A DNA stretch of 64,000 nt. Origin: Dillenia suffruticosa (taxonomy: Eukaryota; Streptophyta; Magnoliopsida; Dilleniales; Dilleniaceae). Of the stretch, positions 17,988 through 38,153 are shown piece after piece; positions within the stretch are counted from its first letter, which is position 1; every line of letters starts with the position of its first letter. The notes under the pieces were generated by a model. It was not told where the DNA came from. It made no database searches and was given only the letters and a program-made list of their open reading frames with translations. Both the position numbers and the translations under genes were made by a program. The stretch spans positions 9,001,774 to 9,065,773 of the forward strand of contig JAVTVX010000030.1 of assembly GCA_033439265.1 (NCBI GenBank), in the 5' to 3' direction.

Positions 17988-18136
17988 ATAGAAGCATGAA
18001 AATACATCAAATGCCTATGTATAAAGTCATTAACATTTGTAGCAATGTGACATGTAATTCTCGGTACCACAATAAATACATATAATCAAGACTTATGTGC
18101 ACATAAAAGTCATACTCTCAACTATTATTTGGTGGC

Positions 18137-18353
18137 AATTTATCTTTATTTTTTTTGATACTATACTAATCGGTATTTAGAGTTATATTCTGACTAATCT
18201 GGTTCGCGACTTGCAGTAACTCATTTAAGAGGGCTACCCTCCCAACGTAATTTTTTTTATACCCAAACCGCGAGTCGAAATGGGAAACTTGGTTAAGGGG
18301 TTTAACACCATATCCATTAAGCTAACTGTCCATCAATAATAATTTATCTTTAT
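18137..18353 (-). mobile_element. tRNA-derived SINE with 13-bp target duplication
   Basis: The plus-strand 13-mer AATTTATCTTTAT occurs at 18137-18149 and 18341-18353. Between them, read on the minus strand, are an A box TAGCTTAATGG (18314-18324), a B box ATTTCGACTC (18272-18281) 32 bp further on, a central CCAGATTAGTC and a 3' end ATAGTATC followed by an A tail. The layout and ending match the SINE at 33.5 kb, so both belong to one tRNA-related family. Confidence 0.85.
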
Positions 18354-19330
18354 GAACCGTCAATGAGTCGCCTATTAATTCATACTTTCGTTTCCTTGTT
18401 TATCAATCTTAATCTTGCACAATACTTTTGAAGTGTCACAATGTGAGGGAATAAACTAATACAACCGAAACTATCTCATGACTCGATAGTCAAAGCCAAG
18501 ATTATAATTGCAATTGTTGTTTGTGGCTTTATATTACAAACAATTTGGGACATCATTTGTCATTGGTATAGTTAATAAGGATATGCTCAATGTTAACTAT
18601 GACTCTATTAGCATTGTTTTTGCATGGTGTTCGACTAATTGGCCATGTTATTTACACTGTATGCCATCATATTTTAAAACAATTTATTCATATTTCAAAT
18701 ATCATGGATGAGTAACCCTGTATCATTCATTCGGGCCCATGGCTATTAAGGGTATCACGTCTTCCAGGTTTGTTTCAGGTGTTTCGATATTCATTTTTAA
18801 CTCAGGGTTGAACTTTTCATGTGATGACCCACTATTCGAACATCTCACCGCCTAGGATAGAGGATTCACTTAGTGTGTAAGATTGGACATGATTCAATAT
18901 GAAACATAGAGACACTCAAAATAGCAGTTTTTGGATTGGCATGGACGTGTGTGATAATACCGAAAGAATTTAGTGAAAATTTTAAATTTTTTATTTTAAT
19001 AATATTTTTTAGAAAAATTTGACAAAATATCATATGTTTTAGTGACTATTATCAAGCCACAAGCAGCAAATCTAGTCACAAGAAACTATATATTTATTAT
19101 GCATTGTCGGTATTTTAAAAGGACTGTATTCCCACTTCCTGGCACCAACATCAGAATTAAGCAAAAATATAATTATATCAAGTATAAAATAATACCTTTA
19201 ATATGAAAACACATACTAAGTTTGCCCAGCCAGTCGATATGACTCTTAAGATATATGGATTACTTAAACATACATCAAATGTACTTAAACATATATAAGG
19301 AATATATCAAAAGGGACTGATGAAATGCAA
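18354..19330. other. No gene seen
   Basis: AT-rich intergenic DNA with no supported coding frame. TATTCCCACTTCCT at about 19127 also occurs near 26030 and 26085, beyond the other end of the gypsy element. Confidence 0.5.
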
Positions 19331-20010
19331 CTGTTAGGGTTGACCCGATCTTTACGACGTAAATTAGAAATAAATAGGTTCAGGATCAAAACAAATACAA
19401 ATAACCAATCAACGTTAGATTAATGTGACCATCTATTTAGACCACTCAAATAATCTCAAATACGATAAACCAAATCACATAACGACACAATTGGGTTGAG
19501 ACACATATTGGGGATGTTTGTAAATTTAGATCTTCAATCTACTAATAATGTAAATTGACGAGACATGATGTCACAAAAACAAAAGAGTGATAATTTCCTC
19601 ACAAAGAAAACTCAATCAATGTTTAATAAATGAATCTAAACTAAAGTGTCTTTTACTCAGTTGGTATTGGCCTATTTATAGGCTAGAAATTGTCTTTAAC
19701 AACAACTAGAATTGGTCAAATTCTTACCTTTCTTTTTTGTTACAATAACTTAACTAAAGTCAAACAAAATGATATTTTTCATAAACAAAACAAATATTAT
19801 TACCCAACTAAAATGGAAACTAATTAGAAATGGCAAACTAAAATAGAAACTAATCGAAAATAGCAACATAGTTGGTCAAATAAGATGATATCTTTCCTAC
19901 TAAGGGAAGATAAAAATAAATAAACTAACAAAAAGTCAACTAATGAGAATCTGTCATAAATGGATCACAAAATCATTAAAAAAATATATATTTTTTAATA
20001 GATTTTTTGC
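19331..20010 (-). repeat. Probable 3' LTR of the Ty3/gypsy element
   Basis: The stretch begins TGTTAGGG on the plus strand and lies just outside the 3' end of pol. It holds a clear minus-strand TATA box (CTATAAATAGG, 19671-19682), as expected for a promoter inside the LTR. The inner limit is approximate and no second LTR copy is recognised near 26 kb, so the call rests on position and the TATA box. Confidence 0.5.
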
Positions 20011-20149
20011 TTTCTTCCACGTTCTCCTCGGGTTCGGGCATTTTTGGGTCTCTTAAACATTCAATTAAGCTTGAAATATGATTAAGCTCTCATCTGCTTA
20101 TTTTTCACTTGGGCTCTAATTTCTTGTGCAAGTAAATTATTAAATTATG

Positions 20150-21400
20150 CCACATCTCTTCCAATTGAGATAGATCATGCCAGATGATGGGATTGCTCTC
20201 CTTTCCCTCATCATTCCCCCTATTGAATAGGAGTCGTCCTCACTCTTCAAAGTCTTCATCAAAATAAGGAAAAGATCGGCAACATTGAAGGTAGCACTTA
20301 CTCCATATTTGATGTTGTAAGCATTGTCATTGATCCTCTCAAGAACTTGAAAAGATCCATCTCATCTGGGCATGAGCTTAGATTTCCTTTTTATTAGGAA
20401 ATCTTTCTTTCCTGAGATGCAACCAAACCAAATCTCTTGGTTCAAAGATGATCCTTTTTCATCCCTTGTTAGCATGGCTCATATATTGCTAAGTCATTCT
20501 TTTGATGTTCTGTCTTGCTTTCTTATGGATTTTCTTAACAAATTCAGCACGTCTCTTCCATCCATATTGATTTTTTTCTACAAAGGCAAAGGAATCAAGT
20601 CAATAGGTGCAAGAGGATTAAAACCCTTCCCCCTCTTACTAAGACTACAGAATGTTCTTGTGAATTATGGCCAATATCAGGTATGTAAGCAGTGATTTCA
20701 AATCCAGAAGTTAATCGTACTCTGGCAAATGATTAATATTTGGTAGTGGAATGAATAGCCCTATTATAGGCAAACTCGACGTGGGGTAAATAATGCTCCT
20801 AATTTTTCAAAATCTTCTTCATGACTGCCATAGTAGTGTAGAGGGTATCCTATTCACAAACTCAGTTTGGCCATCAGTTTGTAGGTGGCAAGTTATAAAG
20901 AATAAACAACTTAGTTCCTAACTTTCCCTACAAAGTTTTTCAAAAGTAACTTAAAAACTTAGTATTCCAATTGGACATTATAATTCTTAGCATTCCATGA
21001 AGCCTTCACACAACCTCCCTAAAAAACAAAGGAGCAATGTTAGATGCATCATCAACCTTTTGACATGCAATGAAGTGTGTTATTTTAGAAAAATGATCCA
21101 CAATAGCAAAAATACAATCTTAACCTTTCTTAGATTTAGGTAATCCCACAATGAAGTCCATGAAAATGTCTTCCTAAGGAACACTAGGAGTAGAAAGGGG
21201 GTGTACAATCCATGAGTATTTAATTTAGATTTAGTCTTATGACACACAATGCATCTTCCCACAAACCTCTCGATATCTCCACGCATTTTAGGCCAATAAA
21301 AGTGGTCATGCCAGATACTCAAGATTTTAGCAATACCAAAATGCCCCGTTAGGCCTCCCAGAATGCGCTTCTTTTATCAATAGCACACAAATGGAATAGT
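20150..21400 (-). pseudogene. gypsy integrase and pol C-terminus, decayed
   Basis: The N-terminal zinc-binding part is clear at 21322-21200 (HDHFYWPKMRGDIERFV then CxxC). Core and C-terminal pieces follow in shifting frames. These include degraded HPQTDGQTE-like sequence near 20870, an IHSTTNYSPFE-like stretch near 20750, and the end near 20250-20340 resembling QVLERINDNAY...ATFNVADL. Several stops make it non-functional. Confidence 0.75.
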
Positions 21401-21458
21401 TAGGAATGTAAAGTTTGTCGGGACGAAATAAGAATCCTTCATGCAAGCAAAATTTGTC

Positions 21459-21943
21459 TCATCTCTTATCGAACTTGCAATAGTTAAAAACCTTTCTAAA
21501 TTTAGCATCATCTGTATATAGATCCTTGAAGAATTTAAAATCAAGAACCTTAGAGTCTAATACAAAAAGAAGAACAAACCTTCTCAAAAGTGTATCGACA
21601 ACAATATTTTCTTTACCTTTCTTGTGCTTGATTATATGAAACGACTTGATGAACTCGATCCACTTAGCATGCCTTTTGTTCAATTTATTTTGATTTTTAA
21701 TATGTTTGAGAGACTCGTGATCAAAATGTATTACAAACTCTTTGGTCCATAAATAATGTTGCCAAGTTTTTAATACTTTAACTAATGCATACAATTCCTT
21801 ATCGCAGGTAAAATAGTTAAGATTTGGGCCACTTAGCCTCTCGCTAAAATAGACAACTTGTTTACCTTTTGGCATCAGTATACCTCTTATACCAATCCTA
21901 GTTGCATCACATTCAATTTCAAAAGTCTTACCAAAATTGGGAA
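21459..21943 (-). pseudogene. gypsy RNase H domain, cut by a CACTA insertion
   Basis: The frame reads through a typical Ty3/gypsy RNase H. It opens with an ECDA motif and continues with [36 protein letters not shown] and a final VVDTLLRR where most relatives have VADALSRR. The acidic residues ECD, DKE, FDHES and VVD are retained. The frame starts inside the CACTA terminus, so its true N-terminal neighbour, the reverse transcriptase, is now about 1.1 kb away. Confidence 0.85.
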
Positions 21944-23065
21944 CACTACAAGAAAACACGCTATTAGTGATGAAAAAAAATTCGTCGATAATAGCGACGG
22001 ATTTACAACGGATCAATGTCGAACTGAATACCGAGTGATTAGCGATAGAAATTAGCAATGAAAATATTTCCGTTGTTAATCCATTGCTGTAGTAGTTCAC
22101 AGTAAAAAAAAAAAAATTTGTAAAACGTATTAGCAACGGATTACCGACAGAATTTTTAGCGACGAAAAATTTCCGTCATTTATCCGTTAGTGTAGTAGTG
22201 AAGGGTAAAATAAATAAATATAGCTATCAGTGACGGATTAGCAATGGAAAATTAGCGACTCAAATTTTAGAGACGGATTGCTGACGAAAATTTTAACTAC
22301 AGATTACTAACAGATTTTTTAAATCTTTTTAAAATTTTTAAAATTTTTAAAATTTTTAAATTTTTTACTTTTTTTAATTTTTAATTTTTATTTAATAATT
22401 CTTTTTCCTTTTCCTTTTATTTTATTTTTTGAAAAAATAATATTATTTTATTTTTTAAAATTTTGTAATATTTTATTTTAAATTATTATTTATTATTATT
22501 ATTTTATAATAAATATCATTTTATTATTTCCTTTTTTGTAATATTTTATTATCATTATTTTATAATAAAATATCATTTTAAATTATTTTATTATTAAAAA
22601 GAGTGTGATAAAGATAACAAATAAAAAAATAATAAGGTAAGAGAATCTAATGTGGTGTGGTGGTTATGGTGTTTTAAGGTTTTTGTTTGTGCTTAGGGTC
22701 GAAGCTCAACGGACGTGGCCAGAGGAATTTTATGCATAATAAAGCAAGTCAGCACGTGTGCAGGCCGAGCGAGCGGGTGCCACATGGCGGAGCGTGTGGA
22801 GCTGTACCTGAGAGCTCAAAAATCTACGACGGAATTTTTTTCGTCGCTAATTTTTTTTCAATTTTTTTTCAAATTTTTTTTAGCGACAGATTATTTTCCG
22901 TCACTAATTATCAGCGATGGATTTTTTCCATCACTGATATTAGCGATGGAAAAAAAATCCATCGTTTATAATCAGTAAGATCAATATTACCGATGAATTT
23001 AGCAACGAAAAATGAATTTTCAGCGATAGATTTTTCTATTATTAAAAGTCCATTTTCTAGTGGTG
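21944..23065. mobile_element. Small non-autonomous CACTA element 1, with tRNA-like module
   Basis: The left terminus is CACTACAAGAAAACACG and the right terminus, inverted, is CACCACTAGAAAATGG. Both are followed by arrays of TTAGCGACGGA / TTTCCGTCGCTAA type repeats in opposite orientation. It lies in the gypsy pol region: the sequences on either side resume reverse transcriptase-RNase H homology, with an approximate TTC target duplication on the minus strand. The interior is AT-rich from 22320 to 22600, then a tRNA-like module, then a GC-rich block up to about 22830. No transposase is present. Confidence 0.85.
22653..22706 (+). promoter_or_regulatory. tRNA-like A/B box module in CACTA element 1
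   Basis: An A-box-like TGGTGTGGTGG at 22653-22663 is followed after 32 bp by a B-box-like GGGTCGAAGCT at 22696-22706. The B box differs from the GTTCRANNC core at one position. Spacing equals that of a tRNA gene. The same module with the same spacing is present in the other two small CACTA elements. It is not a folding tRNA. Polymerase III activity is inferred, not shown. Confidence 0.55.
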
Positions 23066-23068
23066 AAA

Positions 23069-23950
23069 GTACTAATAACGGAGCATGAGTAAACTTTTCG
23101 TTGATTAATCAAAAGGCTTTTTCTTGAACTTCTCCCCATTTAAATGAAACATTCTTCTTGGTCAACTCGTCTATGGGGCTACCAACGCTCTAAAATCCTT
23201 CATAAACCTTTTATAAAAGCTTACCAATTCGTGGAAGCTCCTTACTTGTCCAATAGTGGTAGGGATCGGCCAATCTTGGATTGCATTGATTTTCTCTTCA
23301 TCCACTTCAATTCCCTCACCACATACAATAAAATCAAGAAAAACAATTTTGTTAGTGTAAAATTACAGTTTTTCAAGTTTTCACACAAATTTTCTTTTCT
23401 TAAGACTTCTGAAAGTAATTTAAGTGTTATGTATATTTATCAAAAGTCTACTATACGTAAGAATGTCATCAAAGTAAACCACAAAAAATTTTCTTATATA
23501 AGTACACAAGACATGGTTCATTAGCTTAATAAATTTACTAGATGCATTAGTTAAACCGAATGACATAATTAACCATTCATAAAGACCATGTTTAGTCTTT
23601 AATATTGTTTTCCATTCATCACATTCCTTTATCCTAATTTGATGATAGCCACTTTTTAAATCGATTTTAGAAAAAATAGTAGAGTCGTTCAATTTATCGA
23701 GCATATCATCTAACTTAGGAATGGAATAACGATATCTTACCATAATGTTATTAATGATATGACAATCGATACACATTCTCCATGTACCTTCCTTTTTGGA
23801 TATGAACAACACTGAAACCGCACAAGGACTAAAGCTCTCCCTGACATAGACCTTATCTATCTACTCTTGCATTTGTCTTTGAATCTCCTTTGCCTTATTC
23901 GAGATTGGTGTGATATGTGGGACGATTCAGTAATGAGACACTAGGTATGA
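23069..23950 (-). pseudogene. gypsy reverse transcriptase, decayed
   Basis: The clearest part (23812-23420) has [47 protein letters not shown] and the catalytic YFDDIL box. These are standard Ty3/gypsy reverse transcriptase motifs in order. Degraded sequence continues on both sides. It ends at the CACTA insertion at 23065. Confidence 0.85.
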
Positions 23951-24890
23951 GGTTGATTTGATGCTCTATTCCTCTAATTGGTGGTAGTCCCGATGGCACT
24001 TCCTCAGGACATACGTCCTCATACTCCTACAAAATAAAATTAATAACACTCGACAAAGTAGGGGTTAGGGCATTAAAGTTCAATATAACCTCTTTGTACA
24101 CAAGTACTAGGAGGTCTTGTTGAGATAATAAAACTTTGTTGGCCTTACTTTTTTTTGTTACTAATAAACTCCCTCTTTTCCTCTCTTTTGCCTCTCAATT
24201 TCTCATTTTCTTTTTCTCTCTCTTGCTCTTTTTTGTCTCTCAATTTCTTATTTTTTCTTTCTCTCTCTTGCACTTTTTTATCTCTCTGTTACTTATTTTT
24301 TTCTCTCACTCTCTATCTTTTGAATTATTTTATTGTCCTCTTTCTCTTTCTCTCTTTTCTTTTCTCTCTTTTCTTTGCTCTCTTGACTTGATTTTCTAAT
24401 ATTTGTTTTGTTGACAAAGAAAGGAAGGTTATAGATTCCGTTCAAAACACAAAAGAGTAACGGTTTAAAAACCCATCAAGTGTGACATGCCTATCATATT
24501 GTCAAGGCCTTCTCAATAGGAGATGACATGCTTTCATCGATACAACATCACACAATACTTCGTCTCTATATCTTCCAATAGAAATAGCAACTTGACTTGC
24601 TTTGTTACCTTCAATTCTCCGCATTCGTTGAAACAGTATAGCTTGTATGGTCAAAGATATTTGAAGATGGATAATCCCAGCTTCTCCACTAGTTTGGTGC
24701 TAGCCACGTTGCTATAGCTTCCTCCATCAATGATCATATTATACACCTTTCCTTGGATTTGGCAGCAAGTATGGAATAGATTTTTTCATTGGTCGTCTTC
24801 TTCTACCATCATCTGGATGTTAAACACTCTCCTAGAAAACAGAAGTTCACCCTCTTCTGTATATTCTCCATCTTAAAATTTTATGGTTGA

Positions 24891-25850
24891 CTACTCCTCC
24901 CCATCAGTTAGGCCTTCATCTGTTTCCCTCTCTCCTTGATTGTTAACGATCATGGTTTGTTTGTTAGGACATTCACCAAAGATGTATCCTCTCTCATGGC
25001 ACTTGAAACATTGTATGTCACGAGTTCTTGAAAAATTAAGTTTGATCAATACTTTTTTAGGATGGGCAGGCCACTTCTCACCCCTTCTTGATTTAGCCTC
25101 CTTGGATCTTGATGTAAAGGGAATGTCCTTCCTTGGATTGTGTATCCATGAGTTTAAAGAACTTGATCTATCATTCTTCCTTTTTCCATGCCTCCTCTTA
25201 AGTTGTTGTTCCACTTTGATGGCTTGATGGACCATTTCAGCTCCACGTAATGGTACATCTCCACAATATCGACTATATTATGATTCAGCCCATGTAAGAA
25301 AACACGCCATTGTTATATCTTGGTCTTGCACCATCTTGGCTCTAACCATGGCAATCTCTATTTACTCTCTTGGATCCCTAAGTGAGGCATTGGAGCTTGT
25401 TGTGAAACTCTTGGTGGAAGTAGGTTTGAATAAATTACTTCTTTATATGTGCCTTTATTTCCCCCATGTGGTGATGAGGTGCTCACTAAACCTATGCCTC
25501 TCTTTTTTGTATCTGATCCCACCAGGCAAAAGTATAATTAATAAATTCAAGAGAGGCAAGATTTACCTTTTTACTCTTAGAGTAATTATGGAAGGAAAAG
25601 ATCTACTCAACTCGTATCTCCCACTCCAAGAACACTTTGATATCATTATTGCCTTGAAATGAGGGGATCTTGATCTTGATACCCCCCAAACCTTCTCCTC
25701 ACCTTGACTCTCGACATCTTCATGGTGGTAGGGTCATGTGATTTGAGCTTGTCCTCGGTCTATCGGCATAGTCTTAGAGCTTGTAGTTTGGCTCTCCATA
25801 TGATCTAACCATTTATGGACTTCTTTTAATTGCTTCCTCTCAGGTTTGAG
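24891..25850 (-). pseudogene. gypsy gag with altered zinc knuckle
   Basis: Around 25.4-25.65 kb the minus strand gives a retrotransposon gag core (IPSFQGNND, FLEWEMRVE, WWDQI) in broken frames. At 25235-24891 a frame carries a basic linker and a zinc knuckle CFKCHERGYIFGEC. The usual CX2CX4HX4C has Tyr in place of His, so zinc binding is probably lost. Confidence 0.7.
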
Positions 25851-26010
25851 TGTTATTTGGGTCTCTTAAACATGCATCCAATTGAGTTTGAATAAGTATG
25901 ATTAAGGCCCCATCTGCTTGTTTCATTTAAACTTTGATTTATTGTGCAAGTAGATTATTAAATTGGGGTACATCCCCTTCCAATTAAGATACCTCATGTC
26001 TGAGCGATAG

Positions 26011-27289
26011 GATTCCCACTTCCTATCAAAAGGGATTGTATTCCCATTTAAACTAACAATTGGGCTACATCCTCATCAACTGTATTCCCACTTCCTATCA
26101 AAAGGGACTATATCAAAAGGAAGTGGTTTATCAAAATGATTGATAAAAGATAAACAAGAAGGGATTTAGTATCTTTAGGTCACTGGTTTCTCACTATTTC
26201 TAATAGCCATCTATTTCCCTGAACACCTCAAATGCTAATATTTTGGTCAACTAACCACTAGTTGAGCAAGTAATTCCAAGGGAATTAGGAAAGAAAGTAA
26301 TGCATAACATGCGTATTACATAAGACAAATATTATGCATATTTCATAATTTTATGAATGACATCTATACAGAAAGTTATTAACTTTGAAGTATTAATAAA
26401 TGAAAAGAATAATAATAAAATACACATTAAAAGGAGACGAATTTAACGATTATGAATTTTTCGATTCACCTCTAACCTAGTCATACAAAAAGCTTGCCAA
26501 ATTTGGAATTTCACCTCACCTTACTCTAAGGGAAATAAATCAAAAAAGTTTTTTGATCTCTGGCCATACTTGGATACCATCTTCTTTGTGATTGGAATGG
26601 TTTTTTCTATGGCTATGCTGGGGAGGGTTTAATTGTGTTCACTCTCCAACATATTACATCATTAGTGGTAACTCTCTGCTAGAAAGAAAGACTATATTCC
26701 AATGGTAGCAGTTGGAGTAACCTTGGCCGATGACGTTCTTATTCAAGCCATACTATTAAAATCATTCTTGAGAGGTATTCGACCACAAACCCCACTATCA
26801 AAGATTTTCACTTTACATTGGTTAAGTTTTAATAGGTTTTATTATTATTGGTATGCTCATTAATAAATCAAGAATGAAGAAATCATATGATGAGACATAC
26901 AAATTCATGTATTGAAGGATATAAAGACATTTAATAAGGCTTATAAAGTCACTAGATTTTAGGTTTAACTTGATCTAAAAGGGATATATGAAAGTACCAT
27001 TAAATCAGAGTTAAATGAACTAAAAGGAAACATAAACCCATTATCAACGTAGATTATCTTGATTAAAAAAGGTATGAAAAAGACTCTCTACAAATCTAGA
27101 TTTCTCAAAAAAGACAATCAAAGAGATTTAAAGATCTAGGGTCATACGGGTGAAAATATCTGGTCAAGCTCTTCTTATGTGCATGAGCACAAATACATGT
27201 TGCACCCAACCTATCATGATGTGTTTTTTTATCACCCTATCAATTGCTAAGTCATAAAAAATCGGGCCTTAACTCCTACTTTAACCTTA
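26011..27289. other. No gene seen
   Basis: AT-rich DNA with no supported frame. A short phrase (TTCCCACTTCCTATCAAAAGGGA) occurs twice near 26030 and 26085. Confidence 0.5.
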
Positions 27290-27840
27290 TGAACATCCTT
27301 TTTGGAAGTGTATATGATTGTATGTGTAATTTACATGGACAATACACAAACGTATTGCCCTTCTCTCCTTTCATATGGTTTCTAGCCTCCCTTTTATCCA
27401 CCTTGTCATCAAAAATTAGGTCCAAACTTCCCATATAATCCTTTTATTACCTCACTTAATACGTAGGTAGAGCATGAGTTACATAGTCCACGCACGAGAG
27501 TGCTCAATGGCTACCCCTCTCATTTTATATACTTTTTAGTCCCCTATTATCCACCCCGCCACAAAAATTCATGTCCAAACTCACCTTCTAACTCATTTAT
27601 TACATCACTTAAAGATACGCATTCCTATAGGTAGTGTGCCCCTCATTATGTTACTTGAAAACTTGAAAACATGCATGCATATAGGTAGTCTACGTAGGTT
27701 ACACATATGAGTCACATGGTCCATGCGTGAGTGTAAACGTGCCACCCCCTCTCTCCTTTCTTTCACCTATTCATCTCTTTTGTATACTCTAGGATACAAA
27801 ATTTCACAACCAAACTCCTATTAAAACATCTCTAGCTTTT
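27290..27840. repeat. Three diverged copies of a repeat unit
   Basis: A unit of about 150-220 bp recurs three times, shown by phrases at about 27385-27435, 27540-27590 and 27765-27815 (TATCCACC..., CA-AAAATT..., TCCAAACT) and by variants of GAGT-ACAT-GTCCA-GC. The copies are strongly diverged. They may be transposon subterminal DNA. Confidence 0.45.
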
Positions 27841-28919
27841 TATGGAATCAAACTCTAACACCAAATTTAAGTATATTTATACTATAACATAGTACACAAC
27901 CTCTATAAAAGAAAAAAATATACATAGTAACCAATATTTACCTTTATTTGACTAAAAATAATTTCTCTATATACTTGTAAACAAACCGTAGATTCCACAA
28001 GTTTCAAGAATAAAACAAAGCAATGGTAAGGATATGTCAATGTGCTCCAAAAATATTCTCGAAGATAGTTCTTGAATACTATTAGAAGTAGATTTTGCCC
28101 AAATATATGGTGGTGATTCCTTTTCATCCTCAAGAGTCTGCATTTATTCATATTAAAGTATTTTTCAATATCTTAAACATATCCATCTAAAAATCTCCGA
28201 TTGCTGAACCAAACACAAATAACACGCTTTTTGGTCTTCACTGGTCCTTACTTAAGGAGTTATGGATTTAGGTTTATTGCCAGTAAAAGATGATAACAAA
28301 TATGATATAAGTTTTTTCTTGTATTGACATTGTCCCTCATTTGATCAAACACGTCTAATATAATACTAATAATATTAGTTTGCATTTTTTTTATAAGCAT
28401 GAGGTTCATGTGGTGATAAACAAGATTATTTCTTTAATATGGTAAATCCCAAAAGACCAATATTTAGTCCACTTATGATTTACTTTGAACTCTGCGATTG
28501 TTCCTTGAGGGTCTTCAATCACTGTTGGGACATTGGCAACATGATCCCTTACCTCCTCGTTCATCGACCTCGATGATGGCTTACTTGTCTCAACCAATCC
28601 TTCATCAAAGTGTTATTTATACACTCTCAAAGGGTGATCTGTAAGCAAAAACTATCCATAATATTTAACATGTGATATTTTTTTATTAGAATATAAGTAA
28701 AAGGTCTTTGACCTCCTCCATACATACTGAACATGCCAAAATCCATGTTCGGTGGTTACGTCATATATTTGTGGACCCTAACCTTTTGCAAAATTTGTAA
28801 TTTCTCTATCAATGGTCATAATGAACTAAGTACAACAAGCGTAAAAAATATGTACAATATCCTCATGCACATGTTGGATAGTGTTGATAGCAAGTTGTAC
28901 AGAGTCAAGTTGATAGGCT

Positions 28920-29330
28920 AACATGAATAATTCTTTCCGGATGGACCAAATGGTGTAAAACCATCTACACAAAGTCCTAATCGGATGTTGTGTGGCTCCA
29001 TCGCAAACTCAAAACAAGTCAAATCAAATGTCTTCCACTAGTTTGTATTTGATGAATAAAACATTACTCCAAATTCTGCAATATAAGTGATATGCCAAGT
29101 CATGTGTTCCATCATAACTCAATATTAGTAAAACCTTTGTAATCTTGGAGTCAATGAGAGATAAAATATCTTGTTGAATGGCGTATACTACTTTTTTCGT
29201 ACCATATTCCTCAACACATCACATAAATTATAGTTTTGTAACCTTATTTTTGAAAAACATCATTAACCTACCTAAAAAATGTCTATACATTGAATAGGAG
29301 TCTATAAGTCTCATACTAAATTATTCAAAC
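28920..29330 (-). pseudogene. TNP2-type CACTA transposase fragment
   Basis: The minus strand reads FEFAMEPHNIRLGLCVDGFTPFG shortly before a stop. This matches the conserved En/Spm TNP2 block (AAEPRNVRLGLCTDGFNPFG), followed by a YSC motif. Upstream is a diverged stretch in another frame. Frameshifts and stops make it non-functional. Confidence 0.65.
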
Positions 29331-30421
29331 CATAGCAATTCACTGCAAAGTGATACCTCTGTTGCAATGCCTCATCCGTGAGTTTTATCATTACGTTAAA
29401 ACCCGTCGTATAGTTGTGTTCCATTTTAATGTTTAACATTTGTACTATCATTGATAACATGATATGATTTTCACAACCTTCTCACAAAATTGATCAGTAA
29501 CTTGTAACACATCCATGAAGTGATCGACAAGATGTGACTCCCAATCATTATTGTTGCCCATATCATTAGAACCTGTCATGGATGCATACTTCTTCTGATT
29601 TGTTAGAGAGAGAGAGAGAATACTAACAAACACCTACAAATTAATAACAAGATAAATATATTAGCAATGGAAATAATCATAATTACAATTACAATTATTA
29701 TAAATATATACACTAACTAAGCAAAGAATGTGCTTTAATATACTTTTACCTTAACAAAACTTGTACCTTCAATGAATTATGATAAAATTTTATTTGATAA
29801 AAAATTTTAAAATATTATTGCACTTTTCATCCTATCAATAAACAATTAACATTTTAAACAAAATAGAGAGAAAATTTCATGGTGCAGGAAAGAATATCAT
29901 GGTGGATGTCTATATAGAGTGTGTAATAGCAATACCTTTTCTATGCAATACAAACTACCATCAAAGATGTCCCTAATATGACAGGATGTATCACTTAAAG
30001 ATCATAAGCAACACACTTAGTGATGCCAAGGTATGACTGTCATAGAAAACATACTAGCATTCAAGCAACAGGGCATTGAAAAAGGCTCTACGATGTCATT
30101 AGAGACACCTTCATCAGGCATTGGATAATGACCTTTCAAACTTAAAGTGACATAGCCATGAAAAAGGGACAAAGTGACACCACTAGCGGTGTCGCTAACT
30201 GACTTTTTGCACTAATGGCAACATGGTACTAAAAAGCATATAGCAACAGCATTTGCATTGCATTTTCTTCGTAGCCGGTGGCGTTGCTATGGTCATAGCT
30301 CTGACCATCACTAATTTTTTGCACTAAGGCACAGTGGAGTATAGCGATGCCTATTGTTCGCGCCAATGGGTGACACAGATTGCAACCGATGTAATGACAT
30401 GGTGTTCTTACATCACTATTG

Positions 30422-31566
30422 CACTACTAGAAAACACGTCATTAACGACAGAAAAATCTATCGTTGAAAGTAAGAAATCCGTCACTAAAGGGTATCAGCA
30501 ACAGATTTTTTCCATTGCTTTCCGTTGTTGAAAGTAAGAAATCCGTCGCTAAAAGGTATCAGCGACGGATTTTTTACGTTATTAAATTTATCGTTAAAAG
30601 TCACATCACTAAATATTAGTGACGGAATACTATTATTAGTGATGGAAAAAAATCTATCGATGATAAAAATAAAAAAAATCAGTCGTTGACGGAATACTAT
30701 TATCAACGATGGATTAGTGACAGAAAAATTATCACTAATATTAATGACGGAAAAAAATCCGTCATTGGTAAAAAAATGAAAAAATAAAAAAAAATCAGCA
30801 ACAAACCCAATCCGTCGCTGATATCCGTCACTAATTTTTAAGTTCTCAAAAGCACCCTGCTCCAAGCGCCTGACCCGCGCACCAACCCGCCCGACCTACT
30901 TGTGTGTTGTTGTTTTAATATGCCTAAAATTCCTCCGACCTGCATCCGGTGAGTATGAACCTGTGAACAAACAAAGTAATAACAACACCACAACCACCAC
31001 ACCACAATGAACTCTTGTCTTATTATTTTTTTTTACTTGTTATCTTTATCTCACTTTTTTTAATAATAGTAAAATTATTTAAAATAATAATTTATTATAA
31101 AATAATAAAATAATAAAATTTTAACTTAAAATAAAATATTACAAAATTTTTAAAAATAAAATAATATTATTTTTCTACAAAATAAAATAAAAAGAAAAGG
31201 AAAAAGAATTATTAAATAAAAAATTAAAAAACAATCCGTTGCTAATCCATCGCTAAAATTTTAATTAGTAATCCATCACCTATAGCTGTATTTATTTATT
31301 TTTAAATTTTTTTTTACCCTTCACCACTATACCGATAGATTAGCGACGAAAAATTTTTGTCGCTAAAAATTTCGTCGATAATCCGTCGCTGATAGATTTA
31401 CAGAATTTTTTTTACTGTTCACTACTATAGCAACGAATTAGTGATGGAAATATTTTCGTCACTAATTGCTCGGTATACAGTCCGACGTTAATTCGTTAAT
31501 ATTACCAATGAAATTTTTTTCTTCGGTAATTTTTTGTTACTGATGGCGTGTTTTCTAGTAGTAGTG
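30422..31566. mobile_element. Small non-autonomous CACTA element 2, with tRNA-like module
   Basis: The left terminus is CACTACTAGAAAACACG and the right terminus, inverted, is CACTACTACTAGAAAACACG, differing by one CTA unit. The 3-bp target duplication TTG is perfect (30419-30421 and 31567-31569). Subterminal arrays of GACGGATTTTTT / AAATTTTCGTCGCTAA repeats lie inside each end. In the minus orientation the interior has the same order as element 1: AT-rich spacer, tRNA-like module, GC-rich block. Confidence 0.9.
30951..31004 (-). promoter_or_regulatory. tRNA-like A/B box module in CACTA element 2
   Basis: On the minus strand the A-box-like TGGTGTGGTGG (30994-31004) is identical to that of element 1. 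The B-box-like GGTTCATACTC (30951-30961) starts after exactly 32 bp. The GTTC core is intact with one later mismatch. Confidence 0.55.
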
Positions 31567-31579
31567 TTGTTATCGTTGA

Positions 31580-31750
31580 TAGCATCGCTTTTTCTGTGAC
31601 CAATGACTTCTCTCACATGGGAGGAAAAGTGTGTGGTGTTTTACATCGCTATTGTCATCACTGATGGCATCGCTTTTTCAGTGACCAATGACTTCTCTCA
31701 CGTAGGAGGAAAAATGAGTTGCTAAATTGGTCTTTGTTGTCAAAAAGTGA
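31580..31750. repeat. Tandem repeat, period about 85 bp
   Basis: GCATCGCTTTTTC, GTGACCAATGACTTCTCTCAC and GGAGGAAAA recur about 85 bp apart in the subterminal part of the larger CACTA remnant. The two copies are nearly identical. Confidence 0.8.
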
Positions 31751-32003
31751 CATCCCTGATGTTGCAATGTGCACTCTACATCACCATCATCACGTTGTTG
31801 AATCATCTTTTTTGTTTTTTGTAGTGCCATTCCATGACAACATAATCTTTTTACTCGAGTAGGTAGTTAAGCAACTTTAGTTTGTCATATGGTCATAACA
31901 TTCATTTCAAAATTCCTCCTTTTATGTCATGTTTTTTATAGAAACTCAAATTTTGACATGCTTAATTACACATATTGCATAAATATTTTATTCCTTTTTA
32001 TGT

Positions 32004-32707
32004 TCAAAATATAATCAATATCACGCATTTGTTGTAGAGGCTAAGTCTTTGAAAAACAGCTTTTACACCCAAAGCCTGCTCTTCAACCGAATCTATCGAA
32101 ATCTCGTTTGAAACTTGATCACTTGCATTTGCATAACATACTACAATTGGAACCATAGCAGCAACACGTGCCCAAAATGGATTAGCATAGGTCCATCTAT
32201 GTGTCATGAGTGAAGCATTTGAAAAATGAACAAGATATCAATAATCTAAATTGTTTATCATAGTCAAAGATGTCTGATGCGGAATGCAGATGGCAAGACT
32301 AGGTTCTTTACTAATTCCTCTAAAGGAACTATCTCCTAAAATAAAAGCATCTTCTAACTAAGATTACAAGCATTTGATTCCACTGATTTTAAGCATATAC
32401 AATGAGTGGAACTATAGTTGTCAACTTAATTCAATCTCCATGTGAGTTGTTGATAATACCAAGTTTGCCTTGTACCAACAAATTCTAAGAAAATTAACTC
32501 TATAGGTGGGGGTTAAAAAATGATTAATAACAAGGATTTTAATTCCTTAGAGATAGGCATATGTGATAGTTCATCTGGAGAAGACAGATCAAGTATATCT
32601 AGAGTACTACTTCTAAGTATTGTTTGTAGATCACGACCATCATGAGCCCTTATTATTGCAGTCAATGCTTGTGCAGCTATTCCAATATTAGAACATAATT
32701 TTTCCAT
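32004..32707 (-). pseudogene. N-acetylglucosamine kinase family, 3' exon fragments (decayed second copy)
   Basis: Two exon-like blocks match the half of the kinase missing from the gene at 4-16.5 kb. At about 32690-32560 is IGIAAQALTAIIRAHDGRDLQT...LDLSSPDELS. At 32190-32030 is WTYANPFWARVAAMVP...VKAVFQRL. Both are in the family's order. An AG acceptor (CACATAG) precedes the second block. At the first block the expected acceptor reads TCTAA and one or two glycine/tyrosine codons are missing, and no GT is seen at the expected donor after SSPDEL. The following exons are absent, replaced by CACTA DNA. The likeliest reading is a decayed tandem duplicate on the same strand. A rearranged 3' half of the intact gene is the alternative. 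Confidence 0.8.
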
Positions 32708-33461
32708 ATTAGGATTTGATATTAGACCTGGCCTGCTTTCTTCTACCTAGGATCTGGAAATCCAAGAAATGGGCCCTTTCTTAACATAGAACAGAACATA
32801 GATTAAGCTAAGAGCTAGTTACATATAAGTAACTTATGATGCAATACCTTTCCCTAAGCATCTGTCTCTATTATTTAAGTACAGATAACAACAATGTTTG
32901 AGTTTCTCTATGCATAAAAAGACTATCAAATGCTCAACAAATGATAAGTTGAATGATCTTATAGAATAAAGTATCCTCTAAACAAATGAGAGGATTGTTT
33001 TCCTCTCGTCTACACCCAATTCTTTTTACATGTGTGTCAACACGTTTTCTATGTATGCAGCAAGACAATATTTTCTCACATCTTATCTGGTGGTGAAGCC
33101 AACCTAGCTAGTTTTCTAAAAGTTAAATTATTTTTTAGATAAAACCAAAATCTTTGTTTTTTTTAGTTAAATCCTGATTTCATAATCCAATGTCATATTT
33201 TTAGTACTTTCTACCAAATAAATCAGTAGTTTGAACAATTTTAAATATCTATTTTATCTTATACATTGCAATTAAAATATTTGTTCTCCACTAATTCAAC
33301 ATTTCCTTAATCTAAATATGTTGCATCCAACAGAAGTGTTATGATAGGGCAAAAAAATCAATTTCAAAATTTGAAAAAGGAATGGGTTAATTTGTTAAGT
33401 GATTCAAAGTTCAAGATAGATAGCAAGAGTGTTTGATACAGAGGTTCCTGCCCTTAACTTG
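32708..33461. other. No gene seen
   Basis: AT-rich DNA upstream of the kinase pseudogene. I looked for relics of kinase exons 1-3 on the minus strand and saw none. Confidence 0.5.
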
Positions 33462-33693
33462 AAACTAATGTGTTCTACCAACGTCTGATGGCTCAGTTGG
33501 TTCGGGGACTGACGCCCCTTAACAATGGTCGTGGTTTTGATCTCCTATGGGAACGAAAAAATCAGCACTGGGAGATCTGCCCCTAAAGTGAGCCCTGCGA
33601 GCGGTCGATCCAGATTAATCAAGGTGAAACTCCGGATATTGGGTTGTTGGTCAAGCCATGGTATCAAAAAAAAAAAAAACTAATATGTTCCTA
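33462..33693 (+). mobile_element. tRNA-derived SINE with target duplication
   Basis: The A box TGGCTCAGTTGG (33489-33500) is followed by a degenerate B box GGTTTTGATCTC (33533-33544), a body containing CCAGATTAATC and CTCCGGATATTGGG, and an end GGTATC plus A tail (33666-33679). Flanks AAACTAATGTGTTCTA (from 33462) and AAACTAATATGTTCCTA (33677-33693) form a slightly diverged target duplication. Confidence 0.85.
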
Positions 33694-34248
33694 GTCTGAT
33701 TCTTGCCGCCGATAAGATTATGTTATGCAACTCAAAATTTAAGTATGCTTATCTATTTATCTCTAAACTGACTCCACTTAATGATGTAAAAGTTTAATTG
33801 CTATTATTATTTATTTATCGCACCCTTTTGTGAATTTTTATAGATATTTTGACTCATTTGAATTGAATAGACTGCCTTTGTTGTTTCTACAATGAGATGC
33901 ATTTCTTAAGGTCACACTAGTAAAGAGCTATTTAAAATAGTACCAAAAATTTCTTTGCCTATCTAGATTATGTAGCTCAGTCACTATAGTAAAATAAAGT
34001 ACATTCCTCTGCAAAAAAGAAAACAAAACGAAAACGTTAATAAATAAGGAAAAGAGAAAAACAAAAGGTTTTTGTATAGAGTTTGAGCCTGTTTCATCTA
34101 TATTTTGGGTTAAAACTATTAGTTTTTTACTTATAAATTCATGAAAAAAAGAAAGAATCTCAAATTTTAAATAATACGTTATTTGGAAATTTTGTTCAAA
34201 AAACTTTTTTTTCATAAGTAGACTAGTTGTCAAAGCAATTTATATAAA

Positions 34249-34480
34249 TTCTAATATTTAATGGAAATACAATAAAGAGCAATTAATAACAAAGTTTGAT
34301 AAATACACTACTAGAACATAAGATATTAGCGACGGAAATATTCGTCGTTGATACTAAGATTCCGTTCTAATATTTAATGGAAATACAATAAAGAGCAATT
34401 AACAATAAAGTTTGATAAATACACTACTAGAATATAAGATATTAGCGACGGAAATATTCGTCGTTGATACTAAGATTCCG
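34249..34480. repeat. 116-bp tandem duplication of flank plus CACTA end
   Basis: Copy 1 (34249-34364) and copy 2 (34365-34480) differ at only a few positions. Each holds about 57 bp of flanking host DNA, the ATA target site and about 59 bp of the CACTA element's left end. Two candidate left termini therefore exist, at 34306 and 34422. Confidence 0.95.
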
Positions 34481-35712
34481 TCGCTAAAAAGTATTAGCGA
34501 TAGATTTTTTTTGTCGCTAAATCCGTCACTGAAAATCACCCCACTAAATATTACCGATAAAATACTATTCGTTGCTAAACTATCAGCAATGAATTAGCGA
34601 CGGATTCTGTTGTTAAAAAATCTATCACTAATCCATCAAGATAATATGTAAAAGTATTAGCGATTGATATTTTCCGTCACTCATTCTTGGCACCTGAGGG
34701 TGCTGTTCACGTTCCCCCATGCACATGTCCTCACGCACGCCCGTGACACCCCGCACCCCTGGCACCAGCTCGCGCGCACCCGCCGATACACTAGCTCCGA
34801 GCACACCTTGCATTTTTTTGCAAAAAATGTCTCTATCTAGGATTGAACTTGTGCACACAATGTGGATTATGAGTTGTCCAACCACTATACCACAATCCAT
34901 TCTATAATATCTTTTTTTTATTTATTATCTAACTCTCACTTTTTTTTAATATTAATCTTACTCTCACTTTTGTTTTAAAAGATTTTATCTTAATCTCACA
35001 TTTTTTTTTTCTTATCTCACTCTCATTTTTTTTTTCCCTTTACCTTGGGGTAATTTTTTTTATTGAATATTTTCATTGAATTTTTCTAACTGTTTAAATT
35101 CGATATTGATTAAATTTGTGCTAAATAAAGAAATAAAATATTTCTTTGATTAATTAAGATAGAATAACAAATTATTTTTTTTATTTACCCATTAATTTGA
35201 ATAATAAAAGAATAGTTAAAAAGAAAAAATAATAATAAAAAGAAAAAGAATTATAAAATAATAAAAGAAAAGAAAAAAATTAAAAAATATAGAAAAAAAT
35301 CCATCGCTAATCGGTTGGTAATCCGATATTAAAATTTTTATCGCTAATCCGTTACTGATTGTACAACTATCAGTGATGGATTAGCAACAGATATTTTTCA
35401 TCGCTAAAATTCCATTGCTGATAACTATATATAATTTATTTTTTTACTTTTCACCACTACACCAACGGATTAGTGACGAATATTTCTATCTCGAAAATTT
35501 CCGTCACTAATCGTTCATTGATAATTTTACAATTTTTTTTAACTTTAGACGACTATAGCGACAGATTAGCGATGGAAATATTTCTGTAGTTAATTTTTAT
35601 CGCTAATCTCTCGATAATTTATCCGACATTAATCCGTCATAATTTATCGCTATTTCGATGGATTTTTTTTATCAGTAATTTTTTATCACTGATACCCTAT
35701 TTTTTGTAGTGA
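34422..35712. mobile_element. Small non-autonomous CACTA element 3, with tRNA-like module
   Basis: The left terminus is CACTACTAGAATATAAG and the right terminus, inverted, is CACTACAAAAAATAGGG. The 3-bp duplication ATA is present at 34419-34421 and 35713-35715. Subterminal arrays of TTAGCGACGGA-type repeats lie at both ends. Internally, read on the minus strand, are an AT-rich spacer, a tRNA-like module and a GC-rich block (34690-34810) as in elements 1 and 2. Open frames over the GC-rich block are probably not genes. Confidence 0.85.
34839..34892 (-). promoter_or_regulatory. tRNA-like A/B box module in CACTA element 3
   Basis: This is the best preserved of the three modules. The A box TGGTATAGTGG (34882-34892) fits TRGYNNARNGG fully. 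The B box AGTTCAATCCT (34839-34849) contains GTTCAATCC, a full match to GTTCRANNC. They are separated by 32 bp. The intervening CTCATAA would suit an anticodon loop, but stems are poor and no intact tRNA fold is claimed. Confidence 0.6.
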
Positions 35713-36229
35713 TAACCGATAAAATAAATATTTTTATCAATAATTTTAAAATCTTCATAAATTAAACATAAATATTTTAAAATATTTCTAAATATTTAAA
35801 GTTTATATACTTTTTTCTTTTTTCTTGACTCTTAAGTAGATAATTGGTTTTGCGATCACATCAGTCAAACTCCTCATTTATAACATTGCTTATTCTATTG
35901 AACTTATGAAGTATCGTTATTACGACAATGAATTTTTTTTAGTCAATGAAAATAGCTTCATATCCTATAAGATATGTCACTTTTTTTTTTTTCAAACTCC
36001 AATTGTTCATTTAATGACATTTCTTTGTTAAAATGTGCATGATTGAATATTTCTTTTGCATCTTGTACTAGGGTGCTTTCTCTAAAATCAAAAAATGATA
36101 TCATTCACCTTTATATGTTGCGAGATATCCTTTTAACTTAGGATAGCCAACATCCACACTACATAATATTTACTTAAGAAAAGATTAAATGTTTCATTGT
36201 TAGTTTATTACAAATATCAAAAAATGCAT

Positions 36230-36900
36230 GCATACATACATATATATATCTTAAGAAACTTTATAGTATAAAAATTATAAGTTGTACCAATAGGAGGATG
36301 AGGGAATACAATTTTCTTTTCTTCAAGCACATTTAAAAGATTACGAGTGTCATCCATAGTCCAAGACCAACTAACAACAATAAAGATAAATAACATGTCA
36401 AACCTACACACATGATATTGTGTCTGATATCCTTTTTTACCAATAAAACAAATTTGATCATTTGCATGAGGAATATGTGATCCATTTAGTAGCACCAATC
36501 TGACCTTGAAAATAAGACCAAAATTTACTGTCAACTTTAACTTTTTTTTGGAACTTCTGTGAATTAGGGATTTGGAGTGTTGGCAATTTTGCTATTAAGA
36601 AAACATAAACCATCCAAAATTTCATCAAACTTTCTACTTACAATCTCTCCTAATTTTCTAAATTTATTTTAGGCACTATGATTTGATTCGCTAAATACAC
36701 AAGTCCAAAGAAGCAAAGTGATAGCTTCGAATGCAGTTATCTTCTTTACATGGATGTAATCGTTATTTGTTCACCAATTTATCTCTAAGCTACAAAACGA
36801 CATAAGGTTCGATTTGTATCCTTCTCGAGAAGTATGTAAATTTTTACATCCATCCCTAAAAATAATTAAATCTTCCATTGTTTCCATAAATATTTCATAT
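36230..36900 (-). pseudogene. PIF/Harbinger transposase relic
   Basis: A minus-strand frame at 36534-36217 has LNGSHIPHAN, GKKGYQTQ, CRFDMLF and a final FPHPPIGTTY. This is the order of Harbinger DDE transposases (usually DGTHI..., RKG..TQN, CDFDM.F, FPHPP). The first catalytic Asp reads Asn. Upstream, about 36560-36690, a second frame gives GEIVSRKFDEIL and FTEVPKK, the usual N-terminal part. Stops between the parts mean it is inactive. Confidence 0.7.
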
Positions 36901-38153
36901 GATATATAATTGCTATATTAGCTCCTTTATGCATATATTTTTATAAAAATCTTACACATTTTATTCCTTTTACAACATGCTATTCATTAGAAGACATATG
37001 AACGACAACATTAAAATAAATATATTAAAATCCAAATATATCCTAAATTTAAAAACTAAATATTGTATCGAATACATGAAATAAAGAGAGCAAACAATAA
37101 CCTAAAATGATAGGGAGACAATTAAATTCATGAAGTAATTAAAATACTTAAGTAATGAAATACTCACTTGAATACATAAAACAAATCCATTTTATTTTCT
37201 TACTAGAATGTTGTAAAGAAATAAAAATAAATAAATAAATCTATGTTCTTTTTTTGTAACCAATTGTAGTACAAAATTGAATTCCTCCACACTCAATCTC
37301 CCCTGATTTTTAAACTTGTTTTTATGATAACACAAACATTTTGAGTTGCATTATACTTTCTACAACCACACATAATTGTTCCAATATTTTTTGCAAGTTT
37401 TCCAGCATTCCCATTTTTTACTTTACTCTTTCCAACTTGTTGTTCTAATTCTTCTGGCATCATTTTCATTTTCCTCTTTTGCTAAGTGTTTATTGCATGG
37501 CTTAATTTTTCACCTCTTTAATCTTCTTTAGCAATAAATTCAACAATATTTTCTAGTGAAGTAGGATTTGCATTTTTGTTGATATCTTCAATCACATGAG
37601 TCCATGCATTTTGGACTGTAACGATTATACTGCTAATTACAAATTCTAATTTCTCAAGATGTTGAAACCCTTGTATCGAAACCTAACATGAGCTTTATTT
37701 TCCTAGACAATCATAGAAAAGAAAATTTTAAAAGATTTTTCATTTGCAAATTATTTAAAACCTGTAAACTAATTTGCTTACCCCTATCCTAACTTCCCAC
37801 CATATGACATCAGTTTCAATGGTTTCGATCTCAAGGTTCAAGCCTAAACTTGTTTCTTTTCCCTTCAATTAATTCCATAAATCTTAGTCACACCTTAAAG
37901 CATCCATTCTATTTTTGAATTGCTTTTGAAACCAATTTTTCTTAGTATGTAGCTTGCTTTTCTTGTGAATTTTTTTTTTTGGGTTAGCTCTTCAAACACT
38001 ACCATATTCCTTGTTTGTATACATGAAGTGACATGGAATGAAGGGCCCGCAAGAATGCTCTAAAGAAACCAAATGTCTTGTATAATGGTTTCACATGGAC
38101 CAAAATAAACAAAGATGGAAACTGTTGGTTGCGACAACACTTTCATTAGTTTA
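36901..38153. other. No gene seen
   Basis: AT-rich DNA that may include remains of the Harbinger element. No further domain is recognised. Confidence 0.5.

Follow-up and report, generated by a model that had tools for sequence, protein, structure and literature searches.

We analysed a stretch of 64,000 nucleotides (nt) from the Dillenia suffruticosa genome (contig JAVTVX010000030.1, positions 9,001,774 to 9,065,773, forward strand), here called the window. It holds three small CACTA-type transposons, E1, E2 and E3, each with an internal module that resembles an RNA polymerase III (Pol III) promoter of the tRNA type. An initial annotation, based on the letters of the window, had proposed a CACTA-type family whose tRNA-like module of A and B boxes was present in the ancestor and multiplied with the element. 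Genome-wide copies bear this out: the observation is confirmed, and the genome supports it better than the window alone. The family is real, many-copied and unusual. Judged by its sequence, the putative promoter keeps the boxes, their spacing and often the stop signal, but not the full tRNA fold. We propose, with a probability of roughly 0.68, that a non-autonomous CACTA ancestor captured a Pol III promoter derived from a tRNA or a short interspersed element (SINE), which was then multiplied with the element as a passenger or a helper.

Three small CACTA-type elements with a common module

E1 lies at 21944..23065 of the window with its module on the plus strand (left end CACTACAAGAAAACAC; right end, read inwards, CACCACTAGAAAATGG). 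E2 (30422..31566) and E3 (34422..35711) carry the module on the minus strand. Direct reading and pairwise comparison showed that the three are mutually homologous, small, non-autonomous CACTA-type elements. The termini CACTA...TAGTG were seen directly in E2 and E3, and in E1 with CACCA at one end. Subterminal units of the GCGACGG/CCGTCGC type are present at both ends of all three elements. The end of E3 had first been placed at 35712; the true end is 35711, and 35712-35714 is a copy of the ATA target site. Three distinct target sites had been listed for the family. TTG (E2) and ATA (E3) stand as 3-bp target-site duplications, and TTC falls away: the triplets next to E1, GAA (left) and AAA (right), form an imperfect duplication.

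With E2 and E3 read on the minus strand, the elements share the internal order that had been described for them: a repeat array, an AT-rich spacer, the module, a GC-rich block and a second array. The GC-rich blocks, whose limits are approximate, lie at 22690..22815 in E1 (plus strand, 57% GC), 30850..30930 in E2 (minus strand, 53% GC) and 34690..34815 in E3 (minus strand, 65% GC).

Boxes were scored against the motifs TRGYNNARNGG (A box) and GGTTCRANNCC (B box). E1 has the A-box-like motif TGGTGTGGTGG (10/11) at 22653..22663 and the B-box-like motif GGGTCGAAGCT (9/11) at 22696..22706, followed by a weak terminator-like run of four T (T4) at 22728..22731, all on the plus strand. The same A-box-like motif TGGTGTGGTGG (10/11) is found in E2 at 30994..31004, with a B-box-like motif that has lost one base, GGTTCATACT, at 30952..30961 (both minus strand). 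E3, also on the minus strand, has the A box TGGTATAGTGG (11/11) at 34882..34892, the B-box-like motif AGTTCAATCCT (9/11) at 34839..34849 and a terminator-like T6 run at 34822..34827, 11 nt past the B box. The A-to-B spacing is exactly 32 nt in E1, E2 and E3, as first reported. Both E3 boxes had been called fully consensus, which is true of the A box and not of the B box; the B-box consensus of its type, GGTTCGATTCC, does score 11/11.

For each single element we took the best box pair anywhere in the element, on either strand, and compared its score out of 22 with those of 300 dinucleotide shuffles. E1, E2 and E3 scored 19/22, 19/22 and 20/22, and were equalled by 41/300, 77/300 and 4/300 shuffles, respectively. 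The motifs of E1 and E2 alone are therefore not beyond chance.

Several observations concern the sites of the elements. E1 is inserted in a broken long terminal repeat (LTR) retrotransposon, between pieces encoding RNase H (PF17917) and reverse transcriptase (PF00078); these flanking pieces lie at 21462-21941 and 23423-23860 on the minus strand. At 31565-31826, E2 is seemingly nested in another CACTA-like element, which has 85-bp repeats; the sequence TTTTTTGTAGTG near 31826 looks like a terminus. The left end of E3 lies within a tandem duplication of 116 bp (97%) at 34249-34481, giving two termini, at 34306 and 34422.

Copies of the module across the genome

We searched the genome behind the window (596 Mb, 37 contigs). 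All match counts are lower bounds with 40 candidates scored per search, and some matches are the second piece of one element. The E1 core gave at least 44 matches (77 candidates), the E3 core at least 44 (332 candidates) and the module of a third type, T3, at least 41 (60 candidates). A 30-mer of the E3 head had 58 hits at up to 3 mismatches, and its reversed control had 0. Seventeen of these hits were read at 600 bp and yielded further variants, including T3. The module thus falls into at least three related types, the E1 type (which includes E1 and E2), the E3 type and the T3 type. A common core is visible in alignments of 32 sequences (30 loci with E2 and E3) and of 40 E3-type sequences (39 loci with E3). 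The module is homologous in the aligned copies and sits within a longer conserved core. It keeps both boxes, mostly at 32 nt; two types mostly keep a run of at least five T at the distance seen in tRNA genes; and the tRNA stems are formed in part.

Among 29 E1-type copies, the spacing is 32 nt in 27, 33 nt in one and 30 nt in one. These counts omit E3 (of the other type), L026 (rearranged) and L006 (a near-copy of L005); L120, which was fetched, also stands outside them with a spacing of 31 by eye. The E1-type consensus has the A box TGGTGTGGTGG and the B box GGTTCGAGGCT, each at 10/11, and the first T run (4 or 5) comes 17-24 nt past the B box in 28/29 copies.

In the 40 E3-type copies the spacing is 32 nt in 38 and 31 nt in 2. 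The consensus boxes, TGGTATAGTGG and GGTTCGATTCC, score 11/11 each (22/22), and 0/2000 dinucleotide shuffles reach this. Individually, 17/40 copies have a perfect A box and 4/40 a perfect B box. At least five T begin exactly 11 nt past the B box in 29/40 copies, and 5/40 have no run of four or more within 40 nt. T3 was counted on the 19 matches read: spacing of 32 nt in 18 and 31 nt in one, a perfect A box in 15/19, a perfect B box in 5/19 (at least 10/11 in 16/19), and T5 or T6 exactly 11 nt past the B box in 19/19. Its consensus boxes also score 22/22, with 0/2000 shuffles reaching this. Ten other variants were tallied apart; eight have the 32-nt spacing, and a run of at least five T starts at 11 nt in five, at 13 nt in four and is absent from one. 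The initial annotation had staked its proposal on boxes and spacing being kept in a genome-wide consensus, and this holds for the E3 and T3 types and more weakly for the E1 type (20/22, equalled by 40/2000 shuffles).

Chance matches in DNA of uneven composition could account for the boxes of E1 and E2 taken singly, given how many shuffles equal them. However, no shuffle matched the E3-type and T3-type consensi, the T run lay outside the original claim, and the idea is already contradicted for these two types. We consider it very improbable.

Eleven nucleotides is the stretch from position 63 to position 73 of a tRNA, so the boxes and the terminator are placed as in a tRNA gene. The boxes of type 2 Pol III promoters are 30-40 bp apart, according to the promoter description in PMC7279448. 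The module conforms with its 32 nt, although the E1 type reaches just 20/22, and the T run follows the B box as counted above (E3 29/40, T3 19/19; T4 or T5 in 28/29 for E1). The same description places a TATA-like box at -30/-24 in plant tRNA genes (PMC7279448). The AT-rich stretch upstream of the module is compatible with such a box and proves nothing.

Membership of the CACTA (En/Spm) superfamily was examined by seeking ends in 30 E1-type loci, E2 and E3. In 14/32 loci the best end pair matched the reference in at least 11/16 letters at both ends, near-variants of CACTA being allowed, and had equal flanking triplets; E2 and L023 gave ties. The end ranking gave a bonus to equal triplets and was run without a control. 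At least one subterminal unit was present in 14/17 of the 600-bp variant loci, likewise without a control.

The transposase domain PF02992 occurs in at least 150 places (2258 candidates). No element carrying both the transposase and the module was found among the loci read. One transposase on contig C5, 10.7 kb from a module, was considered as the autonomous partner and rejected, as it lies outside the small element there. That small element is an almost full-length match to E3, one of its ends falling just past the stretch read.

Some arrangements of copies were seen in passing. Adjacent E1-core matches at C30:12496667-12497015, C5:3404601-3404861 and C16:7969330-7969696 suggest that the module, or part of it, may occur twice per element. 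On C16, at about 10.53-12.38 Mb, five near-identical module copies lie about 430-515 kb apart among repeated transposase hits. The region looks like a large repeated segment, and the copy read there (L129) has a different upstream flank. A scan with a sequence model over 16 sequences (122 kb, tRNA and transposase loci included) detected the three window modules and the module of L121, and no others.

Origin and possible role of the module

A tRNA gene was rejected as the identity of the module, which shows no cloverleaf: the stretches tried have no match to the Rfam tRNA family (RF00005) at E ≤10, and the stems, counted as acceptor stem and T arm, are formed in part. ARAGORN found no tRNA in the window. 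A free SINE was rejected as well. A SINE would move alone, with a 3′ tail and duplications of its own; in the copies read the upstream flank of the module is shared, although weaker relatives were possibly missed. This flank, of 46-60 nt, is common to 40/40 E3-type, 31/31 E1-type and 16/17 further copies, the exception being L129; the E3 query held part of it, and the E1 query and the 17-copy pattern held little.

The T arm is probably a remnant of a tRNA gene. It is the best-kept stem, with 55.0% (E3) and 76.7% (T3) of cells paired. Stems were counted at tRNA positions, with E3 and T3 apart because the B-box-to-T distance is not the same in all three types. We also compared the consensi with 27 distinct tRNA sequences of the genome, of a few kinds. 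The tRNA genes nearest to the T3 and E3 consensi match them on the side of the B box, in the same register or shifted by one; 4/300 shuffles for T3 and 5/300 for E3 did as well. The covariation score of the E3 type beat all but 3/500 shuffles, which related sequences can also do without structure, as the tool itself warns. In T3 no stem pair has changed at both of its positions. A consensus RNA structure computed from 37 E3-type copies is weak (10 pairs, -2.2 kcal/mol), and the predicted folds of the three expected transcripts were no better than shuffles. On C1, at about 4.32-4.34 Mb (L069-L080), tRNA-Ile(UAU) genes form an array that repeats every 820 bp or so.

A number of results weigh against the capture of a tRNA-derived or SINE-derived promoter. 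The E1-type consensus falls short in its boxes, as given above; its A box carries G at the A14 position of tRNA genes, and against tRNA genes it aligns no better than shuffles (71/300). Two of the ten further variants have other spacings (28 and 18), and in five no T run starts at 11 nt. RF00005 gave no match at E ≤10 in window 18000-38000, in 34780-34930, in one E1-type copy or in seven T3-type loci. Pairing is near the shuffle level: 49.5% of cells in the mixed set vs 52.4% in shuffles; 47.0% vs 45.7% in the E3 type, with 8/500 shuffles as high and two slid versions pairing equally; and 62.0% vs 62.3% in T3, where the true placement is the highest among the slid versions. The acceptor stem is paired in 41-52%. 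No parent was identified among the 27 tRNA sequences compared, and no free SINE was identified. No module was found in 20 transposase loci of 3.6 kb. Within a type, the plain identity of the B box is no higher than that of its surroundings. Finally, the samples are non-random: the queries contained both boxes, and those for E3 and T3 also took in the T run.

The module could instead owe nothing to a tRNA and be what is left of a gene transcribed by Pol II, or of an intron, in an autonomous element. In the E1 type two sequences about 60 nt apart look like plant splice sites, GTAAGAG ahead of the A box and TTTTTGTTTGTGCGCAG/G at the B box. The GC-rich block, close to one end, is also reminiscent of En/Spm, whose first exon is GC-rich. 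A GTAAGAG-like end is missing, however, from the E3 and T3 consensi, which have perfect boxes and the T run, and such an origin is improbable in our judgement.

Under the capture model, a type 2 Pol III promoter unit derived from a tRNA would have been acquired once, most likely as the head of a SINE or as a tRNA pseudogene, so that the module would descend from a tRNA or a SINE. Cut-and-paste transposition would then have multiplied it as part of the element, with divergence into at least three types. Copies with intact boxes may bind TFIIIC and, in the E3 and T3 types, could initiate a short RNA, about 80-90 nt long. This RNA is predicted to start a few nt before the A box and to stop at the T run, outside the subterminal arrays. 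The initial annotation had suggested short RNAs made through the inverted subterminal repeats. That idea does not fit the E3 and T3 types, where the T run 11 nt past the B box would end the expected RNA before the arrays. In 29 E1-type loci, five or more T first occur in a row at a median distance of 126 nt downstream of the T4, close to the start of the second array. A putative Pol III hairpin RNA from both arrays is therefore unlikely.

Cut-and-paste transposition does not require the module. It would therefore be a passenger or help in another way, for example by keeping the element in open chromatin. The pattern of conservation bears on this choice. In a gapless comparison, the positions identical in all three type consensi are 16/22 in the boxes, 11/32 in the spacer, 7/20 upstream and 2/11 directly downstream (boxes 16/22 vs surroundings and spacer 20/63, Fisher p 0.00095). 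Comparing the types two by two, with T3 represented by a previous version of its consensus, gave p 0.0015-0.0023 for boxes vs the rest. When the pair of windows was slid, 8, 10 and 6 of 80 placements equalled or beat the true one. Nearly all of these lie 1-7 nt upstream of the boxes, and three, in one comparison, lie at 35-37 nt upstream. Since the equal-scoring placements sit just upstream, what has been kept is a pair of islands, each made up of a box and a few preceding bases.

Within types, the plain identities of A box, spacer, B box and upstream region are 0.88, 0.85, 0.80 and 0.89 for E3 and 0.89, 0.82, 0.80 and 0.84 for E1. In the B box of the E3 type, changes other than C-to-T and G-to-A are the rarest of all regions (0.021 vs 0.051-0.100), so CpG decay explains part of the B-box loss.

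The capture model divides in two. The module may be a pure passenger, with boxes kept by common descent alone and no Pol III transcription since the capture. In favour of a passenger, transposition can do without it, boxes and surroundings lose plain identity alike within a type, and the tRNA stems are mostly lost. Against it, the spacer and flanks differ more between types than the boxes do, though with few columns and with windows 1-7 nt upstream scoring equally or better, and the E3-type B box has so few changes of the other kinds. We place it just short of an even chance. Alternatively, the module could be a selected promoter or TFIIIC-binding site that benefits the element, perhaps because it opens chromatin or blocks silencing. 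The types have retained the boxes, and two of them the T run, without a full tRNA fold, and the author of a study on retrotransposons named TRIMp3 takes box conservation in those elements as a sign of function (PMC10886601). On the other hand, the E1 type multiplied despite its damaged A box, and we think a selected site possible but on the unlikely side. Bolder still, the lineage might have retained, across at least three subfamilies, a working Pol III promoter, in two of them with a terminator. Rather than making a transposition intermediate, it would recruit TFIIIC and Pol III to the element's own DNA so that the element stays accessible or resists silencing, and a short RNA with a tRNA-like head would be its product or a by-product. 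Of this we are doubtful.

Elsewhere in the window, at 56039-59464 on the minus strand, there is an open frame of 1141 residues that looks coiled-coil-like by eye, with no Pfam match at E ≤0.001.

Comparison with known systems

Pol III promoters are known in mobile elements that are copied through their RNA, such as SINEs and TRIMp3. A promoter in a cut-and-paste element cannot serve copying, and its retention between subfamilies therefore offers a test of whether the recruitment of TFIIIC and Pol III itself benefits a transposon. In annotation, modules of this type might also pass for tRNAs or SINEs.

We know of no Pol III-type module as a component of the small non-autonomous CACTA elements of plants. 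These elements, for which PMC9033089 has the term SNACs, resemble the present family in their CACTA ends, 3-bp duplication and subterminal repeats. In its passages on Pol III promoters, this review of plant transposable elements names them for SINEs only (PMC9033089). A search of open-licence literature, mostly titles and abstract openings, returned no description of a DNA transposon, CACTA or other, that contains its own Pol III promoter.

The tRNA-related SINEs of plants are similar in having degenerate A and B boxes and no cloverleaf, as outlined in PMC9033089. They differ in solo retroposition and, mostly, an A tail, whereas the module here has a shared upstream flank of 46-60 nt and CACTA ends (E1-type loci and E3). 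Repeat-spread tRNA genes on wheat chromosome 6B, in the account given in parts of PMC3989483, likewise show tRNA sequences multiplied by repeats. Those are predicted tRNA genes in Gypsy or unclassified repeats; here there are boxes and a T run, and no tRNA recognisable by Rfam.

The closest parallel is TRIMp3 (Helenus, Ajax and Cassandra), a proposed class of LTR retrotransposons with a Pol III promoter derived from a tRNA or 5S gene (PMC10886601, sections on the class). Identity with TRIMp3, which would call for LTRs, a primer-binding site, a polypurine tract and 4-5 bp duplications, was rejected, as the family has CACTA ends and 3-bp duplications. The terms DNA transposon, CACTA, EnSpm, MITE and Helitron are all absent from the main text of PMC10886601. 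TRIMp3 are LTR retrotransposons whose RNA is copied, whereas ours is a cut-and-paste DNA element with 3-bp duplications. By the same sections, TRIMp3 elements are also small and non-autonomous, have an internal Pol III promoter whose boxes are conserved while a functional tRNA mostly is not, and are proposed to have arisen by the insertion of a SINE (PMC10886601). On this comparison, the module family is best read as a DNA-transposon counterpart of the TRIMp3 retrotransposons.

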